A stretch of 64,000 nt of DNA from Laspinema sp. D2d (GTDB taxonomy: Bacteria; Cyanobacteriota; Cyanobacteriia; Cyanobacteriales; Laspinemataceae): NCBI RefSeq assembly GCF_025370755.1, contig NZ_JAMXFC010000005.1, forward strand, positions 1 through 64,000, written 5' to 3'. Made by a program: the position numbers and the translations under genes. Below, piece after piece: positions 4,304 through 23,260 of the stretch (the stretch's first letter is position 1; each line of letters starts with the position of its first letter). The notes under the pieces are model-generated. The model searched no databases and was not told the DNA's origin. It worked only from the letters and a program-made list of their open reading frames with translations.

Positions 4304-5995
4304 TTAATCTGCACTAAGTTCGGCGATTTTTGCCATTGGGGTGAGGGTGGGTGCTTTGAAGCCGATGGTTTCGGTCGATCGCACCTGGGCGTATGCTTGG
4401 GTGGCTACGCTATTAATCGCAACGGTCGTATTGTCATACACCTGCATAGCAATTTTTGGATAACAACCGATCGCCACGATCGCTACCAAAAAACTCAGGG
4501 CGATCGCTACTTCCCGAGGGCGACTATCAATAAACGCCGCTTCTCCCGGTAAGATACAATTGGTCCCAAAACAAACTGCTGCTTGGTTTTCAATGAAGTC
4601 TTCGCGTAACTCGGGATCGGTGATGTCACAAGCCGGAATTTCTTTCGATCCGTAGAACGACCCGTGAAACACTTGACGGACCATCGACAGTAGATAAATC
4701 GGGGTTAAAATGACCCCAATTGCAGCCAGAAAGACCACCGCAATCCGGAAGGTCAGGCTATAAAAATCACTGGTGGCAATCCCAATAAATACGGTCACTT
4801 CACTGGCAAATCCACTCATTCCCGGTAGGGCAAGGGATGCCATTGCACCAGCAGTATAGAGAGCAAAAACTTTGGGCATAAAAATCCCAATTCCCCCCAT
4901 ATCTTGCATGGTCATGGTATGGGTTCGGTCGTAGGTTACCCCGGTTAAGAAAAACAGGACCGAGGCAATTAATCCGTGTGAAATCATCTGCAACATTGCC
5001 CCATTAATCCCGAGGTCGGTGAAGGAGGCAATCCCGATTAACACAAATCCCATGTGGGAAACGGAAGAGTAAGCGAGTCGCCGTTTCATATTGGTTTGGG
5101 CAAAGGAGGTTAATGCCCCGTAAACAATATTAACGACTCCCAAGATGACTAAAACCGGAGCAAAATAAACATGAGCATCGGGGAGTAATCCCATGTTCAT
5201 TCGCATTAATCCATACGCACCCATTTTTAATAACACCCCAGCCAAAATCATCGAAACCGGGGCGGATGCTTCCCCGTGGGCGTCGGGAAGCCAGGTATGG
5301 AAGGGGAAGGCGGCGAGTTTGACGCCAAATGCAATTAATAAACCGGCATAGAGGGGCAGTTGCAAAGCCAAGGGGAACTCTTTCAAGGCGATGTCTGCAA
5401 TATCAAAGGAAGCAGGGCCGGGTCCATAGAGGGCTAAGGCGAGTCCGGCAATTAGAATAAAGATAGAGGCCGCAGCGGTATAAAGTAGGAATTTGATGGC
5501 GGCATATTGCCGTTTCGGTCCGCCCCAGATACAGACGAGGAGATAGACGGGGACGAGTTCGATTTCCCACATGATGAAGAACAGCAGGAGGTCTTGGGCG
5601 ATGAATACCCCCACCTGGGCTGCATATAACACCAGCATCAGAAAGTAGAACATTCGCGGTTTGCGGTCTACTTGCCATGCGGATAGCAGGGCCATGCTGG
5701 TCACGAATCCGGCAAGGAGGACCAAAGGCATGGAGATGCCATCTACGGAGACGGTCCAACTGATTCCGAGTTGGGGAATCCAGCTAAATTGTTCGACGAG
5801 TTGAAAGCCGGAAACCTGTGGATCGTAATGTTGCCAGAAGAGGAGACACATGAGGGCGAAGTCGGCGATCGCCACTCCGGTTGCATACCAGCGCAATACG
5901 GTTCCATCGCGATCGGGTATCACCGGAACCAGTAAGGCCGCCACTAGGGGCAGAGCAAATATAGTAGTTAACCAAGGAAATGAATCAGCAAGCAT
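4304..5995 (-). CDS. ndhD: NAD(P)H-quinone oxidoreductase subunit 4 (NdhD)
   Basis: This is the proton-pumping membrane subunit 4 of the thylakoid NDH-1 complex, which takes part in respiration and cyclic electron flow. The 563-residue protein is almost wholly hydrophobic, with about 14 membrane helices, in line with the family. Diagnostic stretches include [17 protein letters not shown] with the conserved helix-5 glutamate, [18 protein letters not shown] with the conserved Lys, and [13 protein letters not shown]. The highly conserved form suggests the NdhD1 type of the NDH-1L complex; separating D1 from D2 needs an alignment. It is a single gene here without ndhF next to it. No good ribosome site is visible ahead of the ATG. 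Confidence 0.92.
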
Positions 5996-6284
5996 TGCAG
6001 TGATTTTTCTCTTTTTAAAGGGGCCAGGGCATTAATCTTGAACCTATTATCCCTGTTTTTGTAACATTTCTTTAACTTTTAGGGAAGGGATGGAAAAAAT
6101 TTTATCTTGAAAAGAAGACCAAATTAACTGAAAATCTTGTGATTCCTAAGACTGTAGTAGCTATTGATTTTTAAAGGGTCTGGCATCTTGAATGCTCTAT
6201 ATCTGCTCTTTAACGTTGGCAATCTGCAATATTTCGGATAAAAAAAGGCAGCTATTTAGAGATATCGAGGTTTATAAAAATGCG
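5996..6284. other. ndhD upstream region, no gene seen
   Basis: This AT-rich spacer should carry the ndhD promoter (minus strand). I see no convincing coding frame and could not fix a promoter. Confidence 0.5.
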
Positions 6285-7221: not shown

Positions 7222-8478
7222 TTAAGCGATTCTTAACATTTTTCTTCGGAGGCAATCCAGAGCACTTTCGGCGCTGTAATGGCGAATCAAGTCCCTTTCT
7301 TGGAAAGCGCTCAAGCGGTATTCAAAACTTTCCACCTCAGAGTTGGGTCCGGCTAACCCGATATAAACTAACCCCACCGGCTTGGTTTCGCTGCCACCCC
7401 CGGGACCGGCAATCCCTGTCACGCTCAGACCCCATGTTGTGCCTAATTTAGCGCGGACACCGAGGGCCATTTGTTGGGCCACAATGTCGCTGACGGCACC
7501 TTCCCGGGCTAAATCCTCTGAATTGACATCCAGAAGCCCTATTTTTACAGAATTGTCATAAGCAATCACCCCGCCTAAGAAATAGCGAGAACTTCCGGAA
7601 ATAGCGGTGAGGAGACTGCCGATACTGCCCCCGGTGCAGGATTCGGCCACGGCGAGGGTTTCACGCCGTTGGAGGAGTAACTCTCCCACCACGGAAGCGA
7701 GGGTATCTTGATCGGACCCAAAATAGTCCAATCCAGCGATCGCTTGAATCTGTTGCTGTACCGGGGCGATCGCCGCTTGGGCTGCCGCTTCGTTGGCAGC
7801 CCGGGCCGAAACCCGGAGTTTGACCTCACCATTGAGGGCATAGGGAGCCACTGTTGGATTCGTCAAAGCCAGTAACGGAGCGACTTTTTCGGCTAAAACC
7901 GACTCAGAAATGCCCCAAAATTTCAACATTCGACTGTAGATAATATCTTGACCCCAGCCTTGGGCTTTGAGGTAGGGAACGGCGGTTTCTTGCCACATTC
8001 GGTACATTTCCTTGGGAACACCAGGAAAGGTCAGAATCGTCAAGTTAGGGCGAGGCTGCCAAATAATGCCCGGAGCAGTGCCTAGGGGATTGGGTAGAAT
8101 CTCGGCACCGGCAGGAATTGAGGCTTGTTTGCGATTGCTGACCGCCATAGGCCGACCGCGCGATGCATATTTTTGGATCAGGTCTTCCAGAATGTCCGTT
8201 CTTTCGACCATTTCTACCCCAAAACAAGCCGCGAGGGTTTCATGGGTGAGGTCGTCGGGGGTGGGGCCGAGACCGCCGGTAAAGATCAGAATTTGGGCAG
8301 AACGCTCAACGGCGATCGCCACGGCCTGTTTAATGCGGTCTGGATTGTCCCCAACTACGGTTTGAAAATAATGAGGGATACCCAGTCCCGCCAGTTGTTT
8401 GGCTAAAAACTGAGAGTTGCTGTTAAGAATGTCTCCCAACAGCAATTCTGTGCCAACACAAATAATCTCAGCACTCAT
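7222..8478 (-). CDS. cinA: CinA-like protein (nicotinamide-nucleotide amidase family)
   Basis: The 418-residue protein has the two-domain CinA layout. Residues 1-170 are a molybdopterin-binding-like fold with GTELLLGDILNSNSQ and GGLGPTPDDLT. Residues about 255-418 are the PncC-type amidase domain with AESCTGGSIGSLLT, the catalytic serine region, and SVTGIAGPGGGSETKPVG. The family hydrolyses NMN and/or ADP-ribose in pyridine nucleotide salvage; 'competence-damage' is a historical name. The stop codon lies inside a 9-bp inverted repeat (7218-7226/7232-7240). It is 62 bp downstream of the phosphotransferase gene and probably shares its transcript. Confidence 0.9.
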   Translation of the reverse strand: MSAEIICVGTELLLGDILNSNSQFLAKQLAGLGIPHYFQTVVGDNPDRIKQAVAIAVERSAQILIFTGGLGPTPDDLTHETLAACFGVEMVERTDILEDLIQKYASRGRPMAVSNRKQASIPAGAEILPNPLGTAPGIIWQPRPNLTILTFPGVPKEMYRMWQETAVPYLKAQGWGQDIIYSRMLKFWGISESVLAEKVAPLLALTNPTVAPYALNGEVKLRVSARAANEAAAQAAIAPVQQQIQAIAGLDYFGSDQDTLASVVGELLLQRRETLAVAESCTGGSIGSLLTAISGSSRYFLGGVIAYDNSVKIGLLDVNSEDLAREGAVSDIVAQQMALGVRAKLGTTWGLSVTGIAGPGGGSETKPVGLVYIGLAGPNSEVESFEYRLSAFQERDLIRHYSAESALDCLRRKMLRIA

Positions 8479-8540
8479 GAATGTTTGATTTTAGAGTTTA
8501 GATAGGACAGGGAGGGGAGTGGTTGTCCCCAGGATTAGGG

Positions 8541-9587
8541 TTATAACCTCGCGTGTTTCTTCACCTTCCAACTGGCATAGCTGAGTAAAGCTGTTGCCGC
8601 AAAAGCATAGGCGATACCACTGGGAATCCCAGCAAATGCCAGGGCGATACTGCCGACCCAAATGGTCAGGGTGTAAATAAACAGAACCGTCAACCGATGG
8701 GAGAGTCCGGCTTCGAGGAGACGGTGATGCAGATGACGCTTATCGGCGGTAAAGGGAGATTTGCCATTGCGAAGGCGATCGACAATCACCGCTGACATAT
8801 CCAAAATCGGCACTGCTAGAATGATATAAGGCAAAACTACCGCTGTGACAGCCGTAGTTTTGACCAAACCCACCACACCGACCCCAGCGAGGGTGAAGCC
8901 GATAAAATAGGACCCCCCATCCCCCATGAAAATTTGGGCCGGATTAAAGTTGTACCGCAGAAAACCCAAGGTAGCACCGGCTAAGGCAGCGGCAATCAAC
9001 GCGGCGGCGGGTTGATGCATAAACAGGCTTACCATGAGCATCACTAAGGCAGCAATGCCGGAAACACCGGCTGCCAGACCATCTAATCCATCGATCCAGT
9101 TAATGGCATTGGTCATGCCAACCAGCCAGATCACCGTAATGGGATAGCTAATCAAGTCCGGGAATTTAACCAGTCCTAGGAAAGGAATGGTTAAAAATTC
9201 AATTTGAACCCCGACTGCCCAAGCCCCACTGGCGCAGATGGTTTGTAACAGGAGTCGTAAGAACGGAGAGAGTCCGTATAAATCGTCAGCAAGTCCGATC
9301 GCAAAGAAGGCAAGGCCGCCAAGGGTGAGGCCCCAAATTTCGTACTCTTTCGGAGTGGGCAAAACGCCAAACCCACCCATCCACCAGACGACTAATAGGG
9401 CCAGGGTTGTCCCTAGGAAGATGGATACGCCTCCCAAGCGAACCATCGGCTGGCGGTGGACTTTGCGTTCTCCAGGAAGATCGACTCGGCCACTTTTAAT
9501 CCCAATTTTTTTGACCACCGGCGTCGTTGCAAGGACAACAAGGGCGGCGACGATAAAAGCAACCAGATGGTAGAGCTGGTAAGGCAT
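8541..9587 (-). CDS. WecA/TagO-type undecaprenyl-phosphate sugar-1-phosphate transferase (glycosyltransferase 4)
   Basis: This 348-residue integral membrane enzyme belongs to the MraY/WecA family and should transfer a sugar-1-phosphate, likely GlcNAc-1-P, from a UDP-sugar to a polyprenyl phosphate to start cell-surface polysaccharide synthesis. About ten membrane helices are visible. Family motifs are DLPGERKVHRQPM..LGG near residue 36, the metal-binding ADDLYGL, NAINWIDGLDGLAAG, FMGDGGSYFIG, and the HLHHRLLEAG histidine cluster that separates WecA-like enzymes from MraY. The acceptor and sugar cannot be told from sequence. cinA follows on the same strand. Confidence 0.85.
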   Translation of the reverse strand: MPYQLYHLVAFIVAALVVLATTPVVKKIGIKSGRVDLPGERKVHRQPMVRLGGVSIFLGTTLALLVVWWMGGFGVLPTPKEYEIWGLTLGGLAFFAIGLADDLYGLSPFLRLLLQTICASGAWAVGVQIEFLTIPFLGLVKFPDLISYPITVIWLVGMTNAINWIDGLDGLAAGVSGIAALVMLMVSLFMHQPAAALIAAALAGATLGFLRYNFNPAQIFMGDGGSYFIGFTLAGVGVVGLVKTTAVTAVVLPYIILAVPILDMSAVIVDRLRNGKSPFTADKRHLHHRLLEAGLSHRLTVLFIYTLTIWVGSIALAFAGIPSGIAYAFAATALLSYASWKVKKHARL

Positions 9588-11735: not shown

Positions 11736-12074
11736 TTAATCCTCCATTTTAGCTCGTATTTCTTCATAAATTTCGTTCATTTTTTGAATAAATTCCTGAG
11801 CTTTTTGGTGCTTTTCGGGATTATTATAAAATAAATCAGGATGACATTTTTTCAAGATAGCTCGATAAGCGTGTTTCACCTCTTTCAGGGAAGCATTAGA
11901 ATTCAATCCAAGAATTTTGTAAAACCGAGCAATTTTATCGCTGACAGGTGGCGGGGGTGTTTGTGAATGGAGAGTTGACGCATCGGGAGGCGATCGCCTG
12001 TTCATCTTTTTCAGTTCCTCCAATTCTGCATCCATTTCCCATGCCTGAAATTTGGCTTCCAAAGGATCAATCAT
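11736..12074 (-). CDS. Small J-domain (DnaJ-like) protein
   Basis: The 112-residue protein has a charged N-terminal helix and Pro-rich linker, then a J domain over about residues 48-105: FYKILGLNSNASLKEVKHAY, the HPD motif in KKCHPDLFYN, and a final helix. J domains stimulate Hsp70 (DnaK) ATPase, so it probably recruits DnaK to a specific client. It lacks the Gly/Phe, zinc and C-terminal domains of DnaJ. I moved the start to the ATG at 12074, which has GAGGAGG eight bases upstream. It is the last gene of the dynamin block, 77 bp after the smaller dynamin-like GTPase, making dynamins possible clients (inference). Confidence 0.85.
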   Translation of the reverse strand: MIDPLEAKFQAWEMDAELEELKKMNRRSPPDASTLHSQTPPPPVSDKIARFYKILGLNSNASLKEVKHAYRAILKKCHPDLFYNNPEKHQKAQEFIQKMNEIYEEIRAKMED

Positions 12075-12151
12075 TTCCAAAACCTCCTCTGTTTAATTTA
12101 CCCCAAGCGGGTTGGCAAATATTGAAACTACTTGATCTAGTTCCCCTAGAT

Positions 12152-13822
12152 TTAAGTCTCCTTTAAAAACTGTAAATCCTGAGTTAACCCTTCCAATACA
12201 TTCTGTAAAAGCTGGAGTTGATAGCGTTTAGTTACCATATCCGATGAGGGCTTCGGGGGTGAAAATTGAATCACAGATAAAGCTATTTTTTCATAGTCTT
12301 GCAAAGTCAAGAAAGCCGTTTTACTGAACCTTTTTAAATAATCTTCCACCGCTGTTTTATAGACAGTTGGTAAATCAGGAGGATTAACCGGAGTGGCAGG
12401 GTTCGCGGGGGTGGAAGAATTGGGCTCAATAATTCGATTGAGTATATAATAAGCACTGCGAGCAACGGTATTGCCCACCGGATTTTCTAATAACCAATCC
12501 AACGACTTCTCCCCTGGTATAGTGGGGGCAGGTTTTGGCGACTTAGGAGCAGAGGGAGTTTGGGGAACCGTTACAGAGGGAGAGTCAGGAAATTTCAGGG
12601 TTAATGTTCCAGGGTGGGGGTGGTTAAAAAACTCGCAAGCTTTATTGACCCAACTGGTAATTTCTTGTTGATATTGAGCCATTGCGGGTTGAAAAAATTG
12701 CATTTCCCAGTTGCGAAATTGACCTTGCTGCAATGCGGCGATCGCCTCCACTTCATATCGCTTTAATAAGTTTGGTAAATACAGTTTACTTTGCAACTCA
12801 GAAACGCTTCCCTCAAACCCCTGCTTAATGAGTTTTTCTGCCTTTTGTTGCACCTGAATTTTATTCGCTTGTTTTTCTTCAGTAAGGGCTAAATCCGTAG
12901 TAATTTCTTGAATTTTTGCTGTAACAGCGTGACTAATTTGAGAGGCGATCGCTTCTAAGCGGGGCAACCAATTGGCCGTTTTTTCGTGATGAAACCCCAC
13001 AATACTTTGTAGCGCTGATTCCAACATCGGGAGTCCCGTCATTTGTGCTGCTGCCGCATCTCCTTTCAGTCTGGCTCTAAGAGCGGGCAAAGCATCAACT
13101 CGATACAAATTACTAATTCCTGGAGGCAAATTGGAGCGAAAACTTTCCGCCACAAACCGCATTCGACTCGACACTTCTTTTTGGTCGTCTGGGTCCATTA
13201 AATTCATAAAATTGACCGCAAACACCACCGTTTCAATCCCGCGATCGAGCAACCAATCCCGGAGATTTTCTCGTTCTCCCAGGGTCATCAACTTACGAGC
13301 ATCTAGCACCTGCACCACCAAATCAGCGGTTAACAGTTGGTTTCGGACTAGATTATCTTGTTCCTCCCGATCATTGGTTCCGGGCAAATCTAAAAATTCT
13401 ACCCCGATTTGGAGGAAAGAATGGGGACAAAATACTTCAACCGCAGCGACATCATTTCGCATCCGGCGCTCCTGGTCTAAAATAGCATATTGCTTAAGGA
13501 TAGCCGTCCCGCGATCGCTCTTCACTTGTCCATCCTTTAAAGTAATTTTAGCACTCAGTTCTTCCCCATATTTAACATGAATTGCCGCCCCCGTCGTCGG
13601 AATCAAATCAATCGGTAACGTACGCTGTCCTAGCAAAGCATTGAGTAAGGTAGATTTGCCATAATTAAAAGGACCAAAAACCGCAATCCGAAAAACCGGA
13701 TTTTCCAACGCGTCACAAATTGTCAGGCTATCTTGATACAGGGGTAGACTTTTATCCAGTTCTAATGCCCCTAATGCTGCCCTGATATTTCTGACTATAT
13801 CTTGATAAACGTTCTGCTGCAT
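12152..13822 (-). CDS. Dynamin-like GTPase, shorter type (556 aa)
   Basis: Residues 1-270 are a dynamin-family GTPase: P-loop GPFNYGKST (50-58), switch I threonine in IPTTGAAI, and the G3 motif DLPGTND. The G4 region reads FAVNFMNLMD, a weak match to the usual N/TKxD. After a helical stretch comes a Pro-rich linker (PSAPKSPKPAPTIPG) and a short helical tail. Unlike the two larger paralogues it has no hydrophobic paddle, so it may not bind membranes alone and might act as a partner. The start was moved to the ATG at 13822, which has AAGGAA seven bases upstream. It lies in a one-strand block with a J-domain gene after it and a DUF559 gene before it. Confidence 0.8.
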   Translation of the reverse strand: MQQNVYQDIVRNIRAALGALELDKSLPLYQDSLTICDALENPVFRIAVFGPFNYGKSTLLNALLGQRTLPIDLIPTTGAAIHVKYGEELSAKITLKDGQVKSDRGTAILKQYAILDQERRMRNDVAAVEVFCPHSFLQIGVEFLDLPGTNDREEQDNLVRNQLLTADLVVQVLDARKLMTLGERENLRDWLLDRGIETVVFAVNFMNLMDPDDQKEVSSRMRFVAESFRSNLPPGISNLYRVDALPALRARLKGDAAAAQMTGLPMLESALQSIVGFHHEKTANWLPRLEAIASQISHAVTAKIQEITTDLALTEEKQANKIQVQQKAEKLIKQGFEGSVSELQSKLYLPNLLKRYEVEAIAALQQGQFRNWEMQFFQPAMAQYQQEITSWVNKACEFFNHPHPGTLTLKFPDSPSVTVPQTPSAPKSPKPAPTIPGEKSLDWLLENPVGNTVARSAYYILNRIIEPNSSTPANPATPVNPPDLPTVYKTAVEDYLKRFSKTAFLTLQDYEKIALSVIQFSPPKPSSDMVTKRYQLQLLQNVLEGLTQDLQFLKET

Positions 13823-13876
13823 CTTTATTCCTTGGGTTAACAATTTTAAGGAAAGCTCTTGATTCCGGAGGACCTC

Positions 13877-13917
13877 TCCCTATTCTCCCTCTCCTAAAAG
13901 GAGAGGGAGAATAGGGA
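13877..13917. repeat. Perfect 18-bp hairpin inside the dynamin block
   Basis: TCCCTATTCTCCCTCTCC and its exact complement are separated by five bases. The hairpin lies between the short dynamin gene and the DUF559 gene in a 238-bp gap. There is no T run on the minus strand after it, so it looks more like an RNA-processing or stability structure, or a small palindromic repeat, than a terminator. Confidence 0.8.
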
Positions 13918-14060
13918 AAATAAGGAAATTTTTTTATTGCTGAGAGGGGGGTGACATGAGTTCATTGGTGATTTTCCCGGTTGCGGGAAAGACATTGATT
14001 TCTGATATCTCTCTTCTGGAGAGCAAGTGCTTTTGGAGGAGCAGGAAGGGGTTTAGTCGG

Positions 14061-14480
14061 TTAAGTTTCTTCTTCACCGGCTGCTGCAATACGCCGGATA
14101 ACCTCATTAATATTTTGTCTAATCTCCTCATTTTTTGTGCGTAATAAACGCAATTTACGGCTTGTAATAATTGGGTCACGTTCTAAATCATATTCTGCTT
14201 GTTTTTCATGAATTTTTCCATCCACCTCTCCCACTAATCCAGCAGCGTGACAATAGAAATCCGTAATAAATCCATCAATAATTTGCTGTCGCAGAAAATG
14301 CCAGCCGTTCAATCGATTAGCACGCAGGTATTGCCATAAAGTTTTCTCTTCTTCTGTCATCTTACGGCGGAATTCCTTGGCTTGCTGCACTTTATCTGAA
14401 CTTACATTTTGTCCAATCACAATATTGTGACGGTCTTCCTGGATTTGTCGGTCTTCTCTTCTAGGTTGTCGTTTATTCAT
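14061..14480 (-). CDS. DUF559 endonuclease-like protein
   Basis: The 139-residue protein matches the DUF559 family, related to very-short-patch-repair (Vsr) type nucleases of the PD-(D/E)XK fold. Seen features are the conserved RKMTEEEKTLWQYLRANRL start, the GWHFLRQQIIDGFITDFYC core, and EVDGKIHE, which fits the metal-binding E-x-D-G-x-x-H pattern. About 30 extra charged residues precede the domain. DUF559 genes are common, often multicopy, in cyanobacteria, and their role is poorly known. It sits between two dynamin genes on the same strand with gaps of 120 and 238 bp. Confidence 0.85.
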   Translation of the reverse strand: MNKRQPRREDRQIQEDRHNIVIGQNVSSDKVQQAKEFRRKMTEEEKTLWQYLRANRLNGWHFLRQQIIDGFITDFYCHAAGLVGEVDGKIHEKQAEYDLERDPIITSRKLRLLRTKNEEIRQNINEVIRRIAAAGEEET

Positions 14481-14600
14481 GAGTAATCTCGGGACTAAAT
14501 TTTCATCCTTGACAATAACTAACCTCTTCCTCCCCCTGCTTTCTTGAACGCTCTTCCTCCCCCTGCCCTCCTAGGGAAGGGGGCCGGGGGGTTAGGTCTC

Positions 14601-16679
14601 TTAACCTACAGCAATCAGTAAATCCTGATATTCGGTCTCAATATTTCGCGCTTCCAAACTGACATCAGCCTCTAGTTTTCTAAGTCGTTCTAATTCACTA
14701 ACCCGATTAATTTCATGGGATTCCTTTTGTGCCAGCAAATTATCTAATTCAGCTTGACGGGATTTGATATCATCATCAATGCGTTGAGTAACTTCACGGT
14801 CATAAGCATCAAAGCACTCTTTAACGGCATCGTGAATCGGCTGCCACTGTTGATCTGCAACTTGGGGCAGATATTTGACCAGTTCTTTTTTGGTCACCTT
14901 AACGACTTCTATTCGAGCGCGATCGGCTTGAAACAAACCCACGCCCAACCCCACCAGTGCTAAAGTAATCGGTCCTAAAATAATCCCAAATACGGTAGAA
15001 ACCGCTGCGCTAATTCCAATTACTGCTACCATATTTAAGAGGATATTTTTCCAGTCAAAACCTGCTCCCATGAGGGCGGCTCCTGCTAGATTGCCCGTGG
15101 CTAATGAAACTAATCCCATTGCCCAATTTGCCCAGGCGGGAGAGCTATCTTCCGGTAAACTGTTGCTCTCAGTATGGATTCTTTGTCCGGTGAGTTTTTC
15201 GGTAATTTTAGTGGTAACTTTAGTGTAGTCAGAACCGTACTGTGAGGCACTTCTGGCTAATTGGATAAACGCCCCATTCATCTCTTGTTCAGCGGTGAGG
15301 CTCCAAGCGGATAATTTATCATTAATGTACTGCTCAAATGCCTGCCGGAATCGGGCTTCAAAGTTTTCTCGTTTGCCTTTGTCGATGAAGTCTCCAAATT
15401 TGATATCCGGTTGATAGGTTAAGAAATCGCTTTCAAAGGTATTGCCTAAGTTGAGGACATAAGTGCGGAATGAATCAGCGATCGCCCGCGCTTTGCTATC
15501 CCGGACCTGTTTAATTTCATCCTTGAAGCGATCTCGAATAGTTGTTAAAGCTTTAAACTCCGGTTCAACCGAACTAATCCGCTGCTTTAATTCATTCACA
15601 TCTCCATCCAGTAAAGGAATCCGACGGGCGATCGCCTCCCGCACCCGGGTGGAGGTTTGCCGTGCTAAAGTTCGCGCTTGCCGCAATTCAGAAACCGCCC
15701 GTTCCTGGGTTAAAAACGCATTTAGCGCCCCCAAAAACTTGGGAAATCCCGTTCCCTCTAATGAGGCGATCGCATCCTTAATCCGACGTCTCAACGCTTG
15801 AATTGCTGAAATTTCAAAGACGCGCTCCTCATAAATATCATGTCCATCTACCACACAATATTCCGCCAAATTGGCCTTAAACACTTGCCGCAGTCGCGTT
15901 TCTGAATCCTGCAATTCTTCCTCATCATCCGGGTCGATTAAACTCTCCCTTACCTGATCCCAGGCATTAATGAGAAAAAATACACTTAATCCCCGCCCCT
16001 TAATATAATTCTCCAGATAGCGGCGTTCGCCCAGGGTGCAAGGTTGTGATGCCCTCATCACAAACAAAATCGCGTGGCAATTGTTAATATACCCCAAAGA
16101 TAATTCATTTCGAGATTCGGTATCATTCAGTCCAGGACTATCAACAATTTCCACCCCTTTTTGCAGTAATGATAGCGGATACTCTAACACCGCATAGTCT
16201 ACATCGGGAAAAGCTTGTTGCTGGTTTTGTTCTAGTTGTTTCGCTTCTGATGGAGGAATGGTATAGTTCTGCTTAAAACTCTTAAAATCTAGCTCTTGGG
16301 GGCTTTTTCCACCCTTAAAATAGACCGTCACCTTCTTTTCGGGTCCGTAGCGCAACACCGTCAGCAGGGCCGTACAAGGGTTCACATCACTGGGTAAAAT
16401 ATTTTCTCCAATTAACGCATTCAGAAAGGTACTTTTCCCCCGTTTCATATCTCCCAAAACCAGGAGGCGGAAGACCCCATATCGTAAATTTTTGCTGGCT
16501 TTTTGAGTATCTTCAATTTCTCGCTCTAAGCCTAATTGCCCAGATTTTTTCGCGCCTTCTGTCTCAGCTTCTTTCAAAATATCGGCTATCTTACTGAATG
16601 CATTAGCCACATCTGTTCGCACTTCGGCGACCCGCTCTAAATTCGTGAGAAAACTTTTGGTTTCCATGTTATAGCTCAT
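14601..16679 (-). CDS. Bacterial dynamin-like protein (BDLP), copy 1
   Basis: At 692 residues this matches the length of the Nostoc punctiforme BDLP. The GTPase domain carries GDMKRGKST (76-84, with Lys82 in the P-loop), the CTALLT switch threonine, DSPGLND (G3) and NAWD (G4). Long helical arms follow. A hydrophobic region at about residues 517-585 (WAMGLVSLATGN through LALVGLGVGLF) corresponds to the membrane-binding paddle. The C-terminus is coiled coil. BDLP binds and tubulates lipid bilayers upon GTP binding; the cellular role is not settled. I chose the ATG at 16679 rather than an upstream TTG because this matches the paralogue's start (M-x-Y-x-M-E). It is 113 bp downstream of that paralogue and clearly a tandem duplicate. 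Confidence 0.92.
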   Translation of the reverse strand: MSYNMETKSFLTNLERVAEVRTDVANAFSKIADILKEAETEGAKKSGQLGLEREIEDTQKASKNLRYGVFRLLVLGDMKRGKSTFLNALIGENILPSDVNPCTALLTVLRYGPEKKVTVYFKGGKSPQELDFKSFKQNYTIPPSEAKQLEQNQQQAFPDVDYAVLEYPLSLLQKGVEIVDSPGLNDTESRNELSLGYINNCHAILFVMRASQPCTLGERRYLENYIKGRGLSVFFLINAWDQVRESLIDPDDEEELQDSETRLRQVFKANLAEYCVVDGHDIYEERVFEISAIQALRRRIKDAIASLEGTGFPKFLGALNAFLTQERAVSELRQARTLARQTSTRVREAIARRIPLLDGDVNELKQRISSVEPEFKALTTIRDRFKDEIKQVRDSKARAIADSFRTYVLNLGNTFESDFLTYQPDIKFGDFIDKGKRENFEARFRQAFEQYINDKLSAWSLTAEQEMNGAFIQLARSASQYGSDYTKVTTKITEKLTGQRIHTESNSLPEDSSPAWANWAMGLVSLATGNLAGAALMGAGFDWKNILLNMVAVIGISAAVSTVFGIILGPITLALVGLGVGLFQADRARIEVVKVTKKELVKYLPQVADQQWQPIHDAVKECFDAYDREVTQRIDDDIKSRQAELDNLLAQKESHEINRVSELERLRKLEADVSLEARNIETEYQDLLIAVG

Positions 16680-16792
16680 GCTGATTAAGGGAATATTGGT
16701 CAATCAAAGTTACCCGATCGCAGTTTGGGTGTGTGGTTTCCTGATCTCAACAGGAGACCCGCTTAAAAAAGCTCCACAACCAAGATGGCATT

Positions 16793-18877
16793 TTAGCCAT
16801 TGTATGAGATTAAGGACTCATAAACTCGGTTAACTGTCCGGCATTCTGAGAGGATGTCTGCTTCTAGTTTTTGCAGACGTTTTAACTCACTGTCTCGATT
16901 AATTTCTCGCGACTGCTTTTGTTGGAGCAAATTATCTAATTCCAAGCGACGCGATTTGATATCATCATTCAGCCGTTTTAAAACTTCGCGGTCATAAGTA
17001 TCAAAACATTCAGTAATCGCTTGATGAATAACTTGACACTGTTCTTCGGCGATTTGAGGAAGATGTTTAATCAGCTCTTTTTTCGTGGCCTTAATCAATT
17101 CTTTGCGACCTTGTTCCGCTTGTAATGCACCGACTCCTAATCCCACTAGCAAGATGCCCAGGGGTCCAGTTAACAGAACCGGAATGGAAAAAATGGCTAA
17201 AAAGCTATAAATACCAATCACGGATAGGGAGTTAACGAGAATGTTTTTCCAGTCGAAACCCGCAGTCGCTAAAAAGACGCCTGCGATATTACCCGTTGCT
17301 AGGGAAACTAATCCCATTGCCCAACTTGCCCAGGTGGGAGAATTGTCTTCTGAATTAAAATCCGTGCGGGTATAAATCTTTTGTCCAATTAACTTTTCAG
17401 TCATAGCCTGGGTGATTCGGGTATAGGCCGAACCATACTCGAATGCCCGGTTAGCCAGTTGGTTGAAAGCTTCCTGCATTTCTTGGTTAGCGGTCTTTTC
17501 CCAGGCGGTAACTTTATCATTCAGATACTGTTCAAATGCCTGTTTAAATGCCGCATTAAATGTTTCTCTTTTTCCTTGGTTTAGGGATTCAAAAAAGCCT
17601 AAATCGGGTTGATACCGTAAAAAATCGGACTCAAAGGTGCTGCCTAAGTTGAGAATATAGGTGCGAAATGAATCAGAAATCCCCCGTGCTTTCTGATCTC
17701 GGACGCTTCTAATTTCATCAGAAAAGCGATCGCGGATATCATTCAGTTTTGTAAATTCCGGTTCTACGGAGTTAATTTGCGCTTTCAACTCGTTGACATC
17801 CCGATCGAGTAAAGGAATCCGACGGGCGATCGCCTCCCGGACGCGATCGGTACTTTGGCGCGCTAAGGTTCGCGCTTGCCGCATTTGAGCTACTGCTCTT
17901 TCCTGAGTCAAAAATGTATTAATTGCCCCCATAAACTCAGGAAATCCCGTCCCTTGTAAGGATTGAGCCGGGTCTTTGATTCGTCGCCGCAATGCCTGAA
18001 GTGAAGAAATTTCAAACACTCGTTCATGATACAGATCATAGCCATCAACCTGACAATAGTCGGTCAAATTGCTATGAAACACCTGGCGCAGTTTTTCCTC
18101 CGCTTCTTGCCGTTCCTCTCGATCATCCGGGTCAATTAGTCCTTTGCTAATTTCATCCCAGGCATTGATGAGAAAGAAAACTGTTAATCCCCGGCCTTTG
18201 ATATAATTATCCAAATAGCGGCGCTCCCCCAAAGTTACCGGCTGACCCGCCCGGAGTACGAACAAAATTCCGTGACAGTTTTTGATATAATTGAGAGACA
18301 TTTCATTCCGGGCTTCCGTATCATTTAGCCCCGGACTGTCCACAATTTCAATCCCCTTTTCCAGTAATGCTAAAGGATACTCAACCACGGCATAGTTGAC
18401 CTCGGGAAAGGCGCATCTTTTCTCCTGTTCTAAGGTCTTGGCTTCTTCAGGGTCAATGGTGTAGCGTTGCTTGAAGGTGGAAAAATCTAACCGTTCCGGA
18501 GGTTGGCCCTCTTTGAAGTAAACAGTCACTGTTTTCTGTTTTCCGTAGCGTAACACGGTGAGCAATGCTGTACAGGGATTTACATCTGCCGGTAATAAAT
18601 TTTCTCCAATTAAGGCATTCAGAAAGGTACTTTTACCCCGCTTCATATCCCCCAGAACCAGGAGTCTAAATACCCCCTGCCGTAAATTCTTGCTCCCGAC
18701 GGTCAGGTCTTCGATGTTGCTTTCTAAGCCCAGTTTTCCCGAAGTTTGCTCCCCTTGGGCTTGGTCAGTTTCTAATAGATCAATCATCCGATCCAGACAG
18801 GCAGCGACCTCAAATCGGACTTGAGCCACCCGCTCCAAATTGTTAATAAAACTTGCGGATTCCATTTTATAAACCAT
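16793..18877 (-). CDS. Bacterial dynamin-like protein (BDLP), copy 2
   Basis: This 694-residue protein is a full-length paralogue of the neighbouring BDLP. The GTPase domain has GDMKRGKST at the same residues (76-84), CTALLT, DSPGLND and NAWD. The helical arms are highly similar, and the predicted paddle (WAMGLVSLATGNIAGVFL through ILLVGLGVGAL) keeps its hydrophobic character but differs in sequence, as expected for two subunits of a hetero-assembly (inference). The ATG at 18877 lies 11 bp after the stop of a coiled-coil membrane protein, implying tight co-expression. Both copies look intact, with no frameshift. Confidence 0.92.
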   Translation of the reverse strand: MVYKMESASFINNLERVAQVRFEVAACLDRMIDLLETDQAQGEQTSGKLGLESNIEDLTVGSKNLRQGVFRLLVLGDMKRGKSTFLNALIGENLLPADVNPCTALLTVLRYGKQKTVTVYFKEGQPPERLDFSTFKQRYTIDPEEAKTLEQEKRCAFPEVNYAVVEYPLALLEKGIEIVDSPGLNDTEARNEMSLNYIKNCHGILFVLRAGQPVTLGERRYLDNYIKGRGLTVFFLINAWDEISKGLIDPDDREERQEAEEKLRQVFHSNLTDYCQVDGYDLYHERVFEISSLQALRRRIKDPAQSLQGTGFPEFMGAINTFLTQERAVAQMRQARTLARQSTDRVREAIARRIPLLDRDVNELKAQINSVEPEFTKLNDIRDRFSDEIRSVRDQKARGISDSFRTYILNLGSTFESDFLRYQPDLGFFESLNQGKRETFNAAFKQAFEQYLNDKVTAWEKTANQEMQEAFNQLANRAFEYGSAYTRITQAMTEKLIGQKIYTRTDFNSEDNSPTWASWAMGLVSLATGNIAGVFLATAGFDWKNILVNSLSVIGIYSFLAIFSIPVLLTGPLGILLVGLGVGALQAEQGRKELIKATKKELIKHLPQIAEEQCQVIHQAITECFDTYDREVLKRLNDDIKSRRLELDNLLQQKQSREINRDSELKRLQKLEADILSECRTVNRVYESLISYNG

Positions 18878-18888
18878 TGGTCTTCTCT

Positions 18889-19242
18889 CTATTTATTGGG
18901 TTTATCTGAGCCAAAAAAAAGTTGGTAGCCAACCCAAGCGATCGCCCCCACAATCACTGCACTTGCCAGCATCGTTCCCACCCGGACAGCCGCGAAAACG
19001 ACAACCACAACCAGAGCATACTTTCCCACCCGCTTCAGTTGTCTTCCCCAGCGCTGGAGTTTCGATTCTTCGGGTTCCTCTTTAATGGTTTGATACAGCG
19101 GAGGTTCGGCTTTGTATAGCTCCATCTCCATTTCTCGCAGTCGTAGCGATCGCTCTCGCTCCGCAATTTCTCGTTCTCGCTCTGCAAGTTCTTTTCTGTC
19201 TCTCTTTTGCTCTTCTGGGTCTAGGTTGCTTTTTGAATTCAT
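18889..19242 (-). CDS. Coiled-coil membrane protein, first gene of dynamin block
   Basis: The 117-residue protein has an extremely charged N-terminal coiled coil (ELAEREREIAERERSLRLRE, about residues 14-45), a basic stretch, and two hydrophobic segments at about 74-110 (YALVVVVVFAAVRVGTML and ASAVIVGAIAWVGYQLFF), ending in a lysine-rich tail. It may form a membrane anchor or oligomeric scaffold for the adjacent dynamins, which it precedes by only 11 bp. I do not recognise a named family. A GAAGG-like ribosome site precedes the ATG. Confidence 0.8.
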   Translation of the reverse strand: MNSKSNLDPEEQKRDRKELAEREREIAERERSLRLREMEMELYKAEPPLYQTIKEEPEESKLQRWGRQLKRVGKYALVVVVVFAAVRVGTMLASAVIVGAIAWVGYQLFFGSDKPNK

Positions 19243-19780: not shown

Positions 19781-21031
19781 CTATTTCATCGCCAGTTCAA
19801 TAATAAATTCTGCTCCTTGTCCTGGGGCACTCACACAGCGTAATTTTCCTCCATGATTGTCGGCGATAATTTGATGACTGATATATAATCCTAGGCCGGT
19901 GCCAGTACCGACGGGTTTGGTAGTATATAAGTATTCAAAAACTCGGGCCATTACTTCCTCACTCATACCGGGACCGTTATCAGCAATTGAAATCGCCACG
20001 CGATCGCCCTCAATTGGGTAAGTGCGAATGGTGATGATATTCGGCTGGTTCTTCATCATTTCTGCCCAATCCCGTCCAACGCTGGCCTCATCTAGGGCAT
20101 CAATAGCATTGGCAATTAAATTCATAAAAACCTGATTCAGTTGTCCCGGATAGCAAATTACGGGAGACAATTCTGCATAGTCTTTTTTAACTTCTATAGC
20201 CGGTCTAACTTCACTGGATTTTAATCGATGTTTTAAAATTAACAGCGTACTATCGATGCCATCATGAATATTAAACGGAATTTTCGTAGTGGTATCGGAT
20301 CGAGAAAATGTGCGTAATGAATTACTCAAATAACAGATGCGCTCACTCCCCTCTTTCATAGAAGCAATCACTTCGGGTACATCATTGACAATATAATCTA
20401 AGTCAATTTCGTGAATTTTCTCCGCAATATCTTCTCCGGGTTCGGGAAACTTCCCCTGATAGGACTGGATTAGTTCGATCAGTCCATTCATATAATCTTC
20501 GGCAATTTCAATATTACTGGCAATAAACCCGACGGGATTATTAATTTCATGGGCAACCCCTGCTACTAACTGACCCAAGGCTGTCATCTTTTCATTTTGG
20601 ATCATTTGAGTTTGAGCATCCAAGAGTTTTTTGCGGTCTTCTCTGAGTTTTTGGACTTGACTTAAGGCTCTATTTATGGTGATTTCTAAATCTTCAAAAT
20701 CGATGGGCTTCGTCAGAAAGTCAAACGCCCCTCGATTCATGGCGGTTCTAATATTTTTCATATCGCTGTAGGCGGACACGACCACGGTTTCAATGCTGGC
20801 ATCAAGTTCGCAGATTTTTTCGAGTAAGGTTAAGCCATTCATTTGGGGCATATTGATATCGGTAATGGTGACCTTAATTTCTGCGTCCGACTGTAACGCT
20901 TCCAAGGCTTCTACCCCATTACCTGCAAATACAAATTCATATTGTTCTGACCGAATCTGCTTGCGAAATTGCCTTCTAATTAATTTTTCAAAGGAAGGTT
21001 CATCATCTACAAATAAAATTTTGGGTGGCAT
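19781..21031 (-). CDS. Receiver-histidine kinase (response regulator fused to HisKA-HATPase)
   Basis: The 416-residue protein begins with a receiver domain (residues 1-120; acidic pair DDE, phospho-acceptor Asp58 in TDINMP, Lys in TKPI), continues through a coiled coil, and ends with a histidine kinase core: H box VAGVAHEINNP with His161, N box NLIANAIDAL, G boxes DNGPGMS and GTGTGLGLYI. It has no sensor domain, so its input is probably phosphorylation of the receiver, plausibly by the CHASE2 kinase encoded 42 bp upstream. Output target unknown. The ATG follows GGAGTAAGCT. Confidence 0.9.
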   Translation of the reverse strand: MPPKILFVDDEPSFEKLIRRQFRKQIRSEQYEFVFAGNGVEALEALQSDAEIKVTITDINMPQMNGLTLLEKICELDASIETVVVSAYSDMKNIRTAMNRGAFDFLTKPIDFEDLEITINRALSQVQKLREDRKKLLDAQTQMIQNEKMTALGQLVAGVAHEINNPVGFIASNIEIAEDYMNGLIELIQSYQGKFPEPGEDIAEKIHEIDLDYIVNDVPEVIASMKEGSERICYLSNSLRTFSRSDTTTKIPFNIHDGIDSTLLILKHRLKSSEVRPAIEVKKDYAELSPVICYPGQLNQVFMNLIANAIDALDEASVGRDWAEMMKNQPNIITIRTYPIEGDRVAISIADNGPGMSEEVMARVFEYLYTTKPVGTGTGLGLYISHQIIADNHGGKLRCVSAPGQGAEFIIELAMK

Positions 21032-21073
21032 AGCTTACTCCGATGATAGGGATTAAAGGGTAAATTGAAGGGG

Positions 21074-23260
21074 TTAAGTCGCGGGGTTGGTTTGGGGTAA
21101 GATGATCAGGAATTCGGTATGATCTCCGGGTTGGCTATTGACATCTAGCTGTCCGCCATGCTGTCCAACGATGGTTTCATAGGTTAGAGATAAACCTAAA
21201 CCCGTGCCTTCTCCCGTGGGTTTGGTGGTAAAAAAGGGATTAAAGATTTTATCCAAGATGTCCTCGGGAATCCCAGGACCATTATCTCGGATCCGGATTT
21301 CTACTCCGGGGGACCTCGCTGGTTCGGTAGGGCGATCGCCGGTGGTACGGGTTTTTATGATGAGGGTGGGGCGATATCCATCGGGATCAGCTTGGTATTT
21401 CTCATACAGGGCATAACAGGCGTTGTTCACAAGATTCAGAAAAGCACGGCTCATATCCTGGGGTACAATATAGATCTCACTGATTGATTCATCATAATCG
21501 GTTTTGATCGCGATCGAAAAATTCGGGTCTTTATTCTGGTAGCTATGGTAGGCTAACTCAATGGACTCACTTAAGATCGAATGCAGATTGACCCGCGATC
21601 GCTGACCTCGTTCCGCTTGAGATAGCAGCAGCATTCCCTCTACAATTTTTTCAATTCTTTCGCCATGCTGTTTAATATCTACCACGCTATCTTTTAGGTC
21701 AGTCAATGTTTCATTCAAGTATTCTAAATCTAAGTCTTCTAAATTTTCGGGCGGATTATCCAGTTCTTCTATCAGTTCTTCGGTTAAATCCACGGAAATC
21801 GAAGCAAAGTTATTCACGAAGTTGAGGGGATTTCTAATTTCATGAGCTATGCCTGCTGCCAGTGATCCCAAAGAAGCCAATTTTTCCTGGGCAATCATTT
21901 GTTTTTGAGCCGCTTTTAACTGTTCCAGGGTGAGTTTAAGCTGTTTATTTTTATCTCGTAACTCCACCGTTCGCTGTTCGACTTTCACCTCTAACGTTCG
22001 GGAATACTCTTCGATTTGTTTATAGGACAACTGGAGGTTTTCTAACAGGGTATAGCCAATGGTGGCGATCGCCGACCCCATTAATGCTAACAAGGGCGGA
22101 ACCAGAGGAATCCACCAACTGAACATAAACGCACTATAAACACTCACAAGTAACACAAAACTAGCCAGGGAAATCATAACCCCAGTCCGGGGAAAAGAGA
22201 TATAAGGTAACCCTTTAATATCTCTCCATTGACAAGTAAATCCAGCCCCCACCACCCCCCATAGAAAAATCCACAGCCATTCTATCCCCTCCGATGCTGT
22301 GCGAATAGTCGATTCCCCCTCTAGGGCCGCTGCAATCAGATGACTGGTCAAATTGGCATGAATTTCTATCCCCGCCATCGATTCGGGAATCCCCGATAAC
22401 GTATTACTATAAGGGGTTAAAGAAAAATCTTTCAGACTAATCGCCGTCGAACCAATTAAAACGATGCGATCGCGCATTAAATCCGGGGGAATTCGATTCT
22501 CTAATACATCCATCAAAGAGATGCTTTCAAAACTCCCCGGGGGTCCGCTATAATTTAACAAAATTTGATATCCTTCATCGGAGGCGCGGACGTAACCCCC
22601 ATCATAAGCACTAAAGGGAGAAAATACCGTCTTGCCTAACTCAATGCCAGTCTCCTCTTTCATCTGGGGAGCAATTCCTTCTCCCTCCAGATAAATCATG
22701 GCTAACTTAAAAGCAAAGCTAAAGACGAGTGTTCCCTCTTCATCGCTCAAATATAAAAACCCCCGACGAATTTTATTATCCATATCCCAGGGGAGATCAT
22801 TTGCACCCACCTGATCGAGGCTATTAAGAATGGGGGAAGGTGCAATTTCGGCTTGCTGTTTATTCCCCACCACTTTGCGAATTCCAATCAAATTTGGGGT
22901 GGTTTCAAATACCTTTTTTAATCGTTCAAAACCGGGTTCTACGGGCAGATCCCGATAAATATCTAAGCCGATCACCTTCGGTTCCTGAGCCTTAATTTTC
23001 TCTAGTAATTCCGCCATCACCTCATCGGGGATCGGCCAAGTTCCCAAAGTGGTCAAGTCATTTTCATTAATCCCCACAATCAAAATTCGGGGGTCTGGGG
23101 GCTGCATAGGCCGCAGTTGAAATAATAAATCCAGGGTTGATAATTCCAGTGCCTGTAACAACCCGCTCATTCTCAGCAAAATCGCCAATCCTGCTACCGT
23201 CGGTGCAAGGATTGACACTTTGCGCCATTCCCAAATTTTTCGCTTAACCTTGGCCCACAT
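21074..23260 (-). CDS. CHASE2-domain sensor histidine kinase
   Basis: The 728-residue membrane kinase starts with one membrane helix and an extracytoplasmic CHASE2 domain (about residues 40-320, including [18 protein letters not shown] and [15 protein letters not shown]). Three membrane helices follow (about 325-415), then a coiled coil and the kinase core: [15 protein letters not shown] with His473, [20 protein letters not shown] and [13 protein letters not shown]. It should sense an unknown periplasmic signal and phosphorylate a receiver, most simply that of the neighbouring receiver-kinase. It lies between the CHAT gene (78 bp upstream) and the receiver-kinase, all on one strand. Confidence 0.92.

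Follow-up and report, generated by a model that had tools for sequence, protein, structure and literature searches.

A conserved cyanobacterial dynamin cassette with a possible Hsp70 link, a variant of the known dynamin tandem, in Laspinema and its relatives

Introduction

Cyanobacteria are known to carry bacterial dynamin-like protein (BDLP) genes in tandem, and the arrangement in Nostoc has been published as 'Tandem B' together with 'Tandem A' (PMC5827413, PMC4159319, PMC6104087; what is said in this article of published work refers to excerpts of the papers cited). The Nostoc BDLP is structurally well studied whereas its role in vivo is unclear (PMC5827413), and assembly-stimulated GTPase activity has not been detected for it in the work excerpted. 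Liu et al. (2018) devoted one sentence to a DnaJ-like domain on the Nostoc partner, for which DnaK binding or a role in assembly was considered possible (PMC6104087), so that the fusion of a J-domain to this dynamin is not a new observation. The order of Tandem A and Tandem B differs between the text and a figure legend of Jilly et al. (PMC5827413); in the loci described here, BDLP lies upstream of the partner dynamin, which we denote DynS. The same authors described another clade of cyanobacterial dynamins, whose genes are followed by DnaK-type genes (PMC5827413).

Dedicated J-proteins have been implicated in the turnover of membrane coats elsewhere. Auxilin brings Hsc70 to clathrin coats and leads to their uncoating (PMC4436892), and HSP70B, CDJ2 and CGE1 assemble as well as disassemble VIPP1 oligomers, and rods were disassembled in vitro (PMC10602608).

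Here we examine a six-gene block in a 64,000-nucleotide stretch (the window) of the 6.6 Mb genome of the filamentous cyanobacterium Laspinema sp. D2d. Judged by sequence comparison, five of the six genes constitute a genuine and conserved cassette that varies the dynamin tandem already known from cyanobacteria and has a possible Hsp70 link. It resembles Nostoc BDLP1 and its tandem partner in carrying the same two protein types side by side, and in the DnaJ-like tail of the Nostoc partner, but the window differs in having two BDLP paralogues, a separate J-protein gene, a DynS tip lacking the hydrophobic segment and an inserted DUF559 gene.

Eleos is a defence system. The likeness of the block to Eleos and to LeoABC (PMC4159319) lies in several dynamins in a row and weak matches to PADLOC models, whereas these matches gave no distinct LeoA or LeoBC assignment to the window dynamins. 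With Campylobacter Cj-DLP1/Cj-DLP2 and other paired bacterial dynamins (PMC6104087) it shares side-by-side dynamin genes, and the Campylobacter structures 5owv and 5oxf are among the Foldseek matches of the window's DynS with low overall fold scores, but the Cj-DLP operon, as described in the excerpt, includes neither the small coiled-coil/membrane protein that we denote CC nor a J-protein. What the proposed mechanism has in common with auxilin/Hsc70 on clathrin and CDJ2/HSP70B on VIPP1 is a dedicated J-protein aiming Hsp70 at a membrane coat polymer, and this likeness is one of analogy only. CC, a separate J gene, an old BDLP1/BDLP2 pair and the G4/G5 exchange reported below were not met in the main-text excerpts of the BDLP-tandem literature, which were gathered without CC as a search target.

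Organisation of the locus

All six genes proposed by a first-pass annotation of the sequence appear in the open reading frame (ORF) list, on the minus strand and in the order that it gave (Table 1). CC and BDLP1 are separated by 11 bp, as it had stated, and the subsequent gaps in transcription order are 89, 120, 217 and 71 bp; the BDLP lengths of 694 and 692 residues also hold, the latter from the ATG start. Upstream of the block, at 19781-23260 on the same strand, the window carries two histidine-kinase-type genes with homologues at that position in all six other loci of the genus.

Table 1. Genes of the dynamin block in the window, in transcription order
Gene	Position	Strand	Product
CC	18889-19242	-	117 aa; charged helix and long hydrophobic helix; proposed membrane anchor
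BDLP1	16793-18877	-	694 aa; upstream full-length bacterial dynamin-like paralogue
BDLP2	14601-16703	-	700 aa from TTG, 692 aa from ATG at 16679; downstream paralogue
DUF559 gene	14061-14480	-	139 aa; inserted passenger, outside the proposed machine
DynS	12152-13843	-	563 aa from TTG; divergent dynamin of the 'Tandem A' type, partner of BDLP
J-protein	11736-12080	-	114 aa from TTG; J-domain with HPD

Linkage and gene order across cyanobacteria

Among 339 genomes drawn from the phylum, with three BDLP candidates scored per genome, the BDLP1 query gave matches at E <= 1e-15 in 48, and 30 of these carry a full or near-full BDLP at an identity of at least 47%. A strong CC match is present in 29 of the 30 BDLP genomes and a strong DynS (E < 1e-239) in 28. 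Conversely, every one of the 28 strong-DynS genomes carries BDLP, and the two genes are adjacent in 27 (26 loci and the window), the DynS of genome G069 lying on another contig.

Gene order was compared over 95 fetched loci (40 + 55), 84 of them distinct and the window not counted. CC occurs no more than 2 kb upstream of the leading BDLP gene at 62 of 81 testable loci, with a median gap of 16 bp, and no recognised CC was present at the other 19; DynS lies within 3 kb downstream of BDLP at 62 of 74 loci, was not found at 10 and is farther away at two more. The complete series CC-BDLP-DynS, in one order and on one strand, is found at 53 of the 84 distinct loci, the remainder being due partly to contig ends and partly to absence of a gene. 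The surroundings differ from family to family. In the genus the block is preceded by histidine-kinase-type genes and followed by an SDR gene; a second family has MnmE, nitroreductase and ketol-acid reductoisomerase genes in its flanks, and in a third the neighbours encode a PALP enzyme, a Uma2-family protein and a peroxiredoxin. That the flanks vary among families, yet the gene order is constant, is counted in favour of one cassette, and comparison of the loci shows CC, the BDLP(s) and DynS to be a linked, order-conserved unit at the level of sequence.

The first-pass annotation had taken all six genes for a single machine and named conserved co-occurrence of the six families in the same order as the check. 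Linkage, order and the J fusion described below support this reading for every gene but DUF559, which occurs at 3 of the 84 other loci and in the window, all within this genus.

Diverged rows of two or three dynamins were also seen in genomes G326, G312 and G306 (L114, L115 and L116), and the last gene of each row encodes a relative of DynS (about 430-470 bits) that shares the G4 Asn and the G5 Asp described below.

The two BDLP paralogues

Both paralogues carry the Dynamin_N GTPase domain (E 1.5e-31 for BDLP1 and 4.5e-33 for BDLP2) and the BDLP helical domain, Dynamin-like_hel_bact (E 4.7e-179 and 5.7e-185, respectively), and BDLP1 matches the solved Nostoc BDLP (2j68) at E 1.1e-297. BDLP2 is 96% identical to the proteins of Laspinema olomoucense (L054) and L. 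palackyanum (L088). The dN/dS values between the window and six relatives are 0.04-0.08 for BDLP2 and 0.08-0.11 for BDLP1. In genome G077, a BDLP very close to the crystallised Nostoc protein (1474.8 bits over 691 residues; L028) has a J-fused DynS 273 bp downstream.

In a 51-row tree, the window BDLP1 falls in a clade of 11 rows (support 100/96) that comprises the copies of the genus and those of four more genera, across three families of which one is that of the window. A larger quick tree (FastTree, 110 rows, 30 of 107 inner branches open) includes 23 loci with exactly two BDLPs, and 22 of the 23 downstream copies lie inside a BDLP2-type cluster (support 99), as do 58 of 61 single-copy BDLPs, while 22 of the 23 upstream copies lie outside it. 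The sole exception among the two-BDLP loci is Zarconia (L097), in which the order is reversed. Since BDLP1 and BDLP2 sit in separate old groups, a recent local duplication is ruled out and the three-dynamin block is an old arrangement.

DynS, a partner dynamin with altered G4 and G5 sites

DynS is a divergent dynamin (Dynamin_N, E 4.9e-26) encoded beside the Tandem B BDLP, and was likened to Tandem A by its description in print. Its dN/dS is 0.13-0.14 (window versus six relatives), and it retains the P-loop lysine, the switch threonine and the DLPG motif. The canonical N/TxxD motif is missing at G4, which reads NFMN (residues 211-214), and G5 reads VDAL (249-252). All 69 readable rows, three diverged copies among them, have Asn in place of Asp at G4, and all 70 have Asp in place of Ser at G5; among BDLPs, in contrast, G4 has Asp in all 110 rows and Asp occurs at that G5 position in none of 111. 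In the AlphaFold model (pLDDT 80.1, pTM 0.62) the two sites come after strands 206-211 and 246-248, the placement that G4 and G5 should have. A Foldseek search with this model gave 2j69 as best match (E 3.4e-20) at a TM-score of 0.38, low enough that the likeness lies in the domains and not in their arrangement.

In Ras these G4 and G5 residues touch one another, and in other GTPases an Asp to Asn change at G4 favours XTP. As the two changes occur together, at residues in contact in Ras, they look like a coordinated rewiring of base recognition, as far as sequence can indicate. Jilly et al. noted, in the excerpt, that G4 is less conserved in BDLPs (PMC5827413).

DynS had also been described, from the window, as lacking the hydrophobic paddle. 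This is true of the window, where the best 19-residue tip hydropathy is 0.31, and the value is 0.45 for the six genus members, but it does not extend to the family, whose median is 1.54 and in which 55 of 67 rows reach at least 1.4.

CC, a small putative membrane protein

No Pfam family was found above cut-off for CC, only DUF3040 at 23.7 bits against a cut-off of 24.7. An AlphaFold model places helices at residues 9-44 and 61-110 with a pTM of just 0.29, so either a hairpin or a single membrane span may be the correct topology. The gene is under purifying selection, dN/dS being 0.11-0.20 between the window and six relatives.

In the 339 genomes there are 33 strong CC matches (E <= 3.3e-20), 29 at BDLP loci and four without an intact BDLP. 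Three of these four lie beside, or are fused to, dynamin-gene fragments and the fourth CC carries two stops; with all 33 either at BDLP loci or in such decayed or broken cases, the idea of CC as a free-standing family was ruled out. A wider family of small membrane proteins is indicated by weaker matches (E 1.5e-7 to 7.2e-4); a search for BDLP or DynS profile matches in the ORFs around eight such places gave none at seven, and the eighth is L119, described next.

Two further arrangements were recorded. In the Laspinema sp. D2d genome itself, on contig C7 (L119), a CC-like protein (5908-6279) and a dynamin-like GTPase ORF (7363-9285) are encoded about 1.1 kb apart on the same strand. In genome G161 (contig C153, L113), a 268-aa ORF at 4884-5690 on the minus strand joins CC to the C-terminus of DynS and the J-domain; without BDLP and most of DynS, it is an in-frame deletion remnant.

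The J-domain and its fusion to DynS

The J-protein matches Pfam DnaJ (PF00226) at E 1.3e-12. Among 62 other DynS loci, the J-domain is fused to the DynS C-terminus at 29, in Nostocales-type genomes, and is encoded by the next gene after DynS at nine (six of the genus, two of Oscillatoria and one of Symplocastrum). The fused proteins, of 708-783 aa, end in the J-domain, and all three of those tested match DnaJ (E 1.3e-15 to 2.6e-14). An element of the form E..F..WE.. precedes the J-domain both in fused DynS and in the separate J-protein of the window. Because it is fused to DynS in other lineages, the J-protein is considered part of the cassette in those where it is separate. The HPD motif is kept in the window and at 37 of the 38 other J-bearing loci; the fused J-domain of L032 reads HHD. 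At the other 24 DynS loci no J-profile match above 15 bits was found in the ORFs of the fetched stretches, at least one of which (L092) is cut by a contig end, and thus J is not universal.

A search of the 339 genomes with the J profile gave 23 matches at E <= 1.6e-29: 19 fused to DynS, the window, the decayed CC-J remnant of G161, and one each in G071 and G314. The next match (E 2.2e-24) covers the J-domain alone. G071 and G314 lack these dynamins, and their J-proteins (L108, 7031-7360, and L109, 6937-7311) share the N-terminal element. Within the block, constraint is weakest on the genus's separate J gene (dN/dS 0.28-0.60 for the window versus six relatives). The genome that carries the window has ten HSP70 matches, three of them long HSP70 genes, and ten J-domain matches.

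The DUF559 gene as an insertion

The DUF559 product matches its Pfam family at E 6.3e-31 (dN/dS 0.23-0.28, window versus three relatives), and the genome has four DUF559 matches. The gene is present at four of the seven genus loci, the window included, and at no other distinct locus. At L014, L016 and L017, the DUF559 gene between BDLP2 and DynS lies amid several copies of short palindromic repeats rich in GC. Two DUF559-free spacers, of 76 bp (L013) and 75 bp (L015), contain a short repeat of this palindromic, GC-rich kind, and the 199-bp spacer of L018 is unrelated. Restricted to the genus, lying within repeats and lacking in the DUF559-free spacers of two members, the gene is an insertion, and it was rejected as an effector.

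A proposed membrane-remodelling machine

We consider there to be roughly an even chance that the products of the block form a hetero-oligomeric dynamin machine for remodelling a cyanobacterial membrane, probably by tethering or fusion, and that this machine is recycled via DnaK. CC would sit in the membrane and recruit the dynamins, BDLP1 and BDLP2 would form a stable GTP-bound coat, and DynS would co-assemble as a regulatory subunit with different nucleotide handling. By analogy with clathrin and VIPP1, the J-domain, whether fused to DynS or separate, might then bring DnaK/Hsp70 to load or strip the coat. Failure to detect assembly-stimulated GTPase activity for the Nostoc BDLP leaves room for another disassembly factor, and an Hsp70 step on a coat has precedents in auxilin/Hsc70 and CDJ2/HSP70B. 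With J lacking at 24 of 62 DynS loci, not every version can depend on this J-domain to recruit Hsp70. The weak constraint on J, the HHD of L032 and the J-proteins of genomes G071 and G314, which lack these dynamins, count against the machine, as do the 19 of 81 testable loci with no recognised CC, the 10 of 74 with no DynS and the fact that the VIPP1 work describes assembly beside disassembly. A narrower form, in which a CC-anchored coat of BDLP1/BDLP2 and DynS, with the DynS base pocket rewired, would be dismantled by the J-domain and Hsp70 as a counterpart of auxilin-type uncoating, is put forward tentatively and is on the unlikely side; within it, DynS possibly binds a nucleotide other than GTP, or contacts guanine differently, to go by its sequence.

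The same machine could operate with a J-domain that serves assembly, dimerisation or folding instead of uncoating, and with a role in the repair of membrane stress. This is a realistic possibility, if rather improbable: an assembly function was suggested, beside DnaK binding, for the DnaJ-like tail of the Nostoc partner (PMC6104087), Bacillus subtilis DynA has been described as a membrane-stabilising dynamin (PMC10104851), and the absence of J from those 24 loci fits, but retention of HPD at nearly all J-bearing loci is what would be expected if Hsp70 is recruited. We regard as very unlikely that the block is an anti-phage system related to LeoABC/Eleos whose dynamins respond to infection at the membrane, and the phage tolerance suggested by the first-pass annotation found little support. 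In its favour, B. subtilis DynA was reported to be active against phage (PMC10104851), a Uma2-family (nuclease-like) gene is in the flanks of 13 of 40 loci, and the PADLOC models of LeoA and LeoBC give matches, if weak ones (65.8 and 51.7 bits for BDLP1, 51.0 and 45.6 for BDLP2, 50.3 and 34.2 for DynS; cut-offs not given). Against it, the same pair of models is hit by all three dynamins, a pattern that generic homology would produce. Moreover, the positions are conserved in related genomes and the flanks are metabolic, which looks unlike a defence island; the ten conserved flanking proteins tested were mostly metabolic, with one Uma2 nuclease-like family. Finally, that the dynamins alone matter and CC, J and DUF559 are chance neighbours holds for DUF559, and the separate J gene is indeed lineage-restricted, being confined to the window, the six other genus loci and the Oscillatoria and Symplocastrum loci mentioned above. 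As an account of the whole block it is highly improbable, given the fusion of J to DynS at 29 loci and the tight linkage and low dN/dS of CC.

Significance

Fusion of the J-domain onto DynS in relatives suggests a membrane-remodelling machine that may be taken apart by Hsp70. For BDLPs of the Nostoc type, the cassette offers candidates for the missing partners, namely a conserved membrane protein, a partner dynamin that is invariantly altered and an Hsp70 co-chaperone, and with them the regulation and removal of a stable bacterial dynamin coat becomes directly testable.
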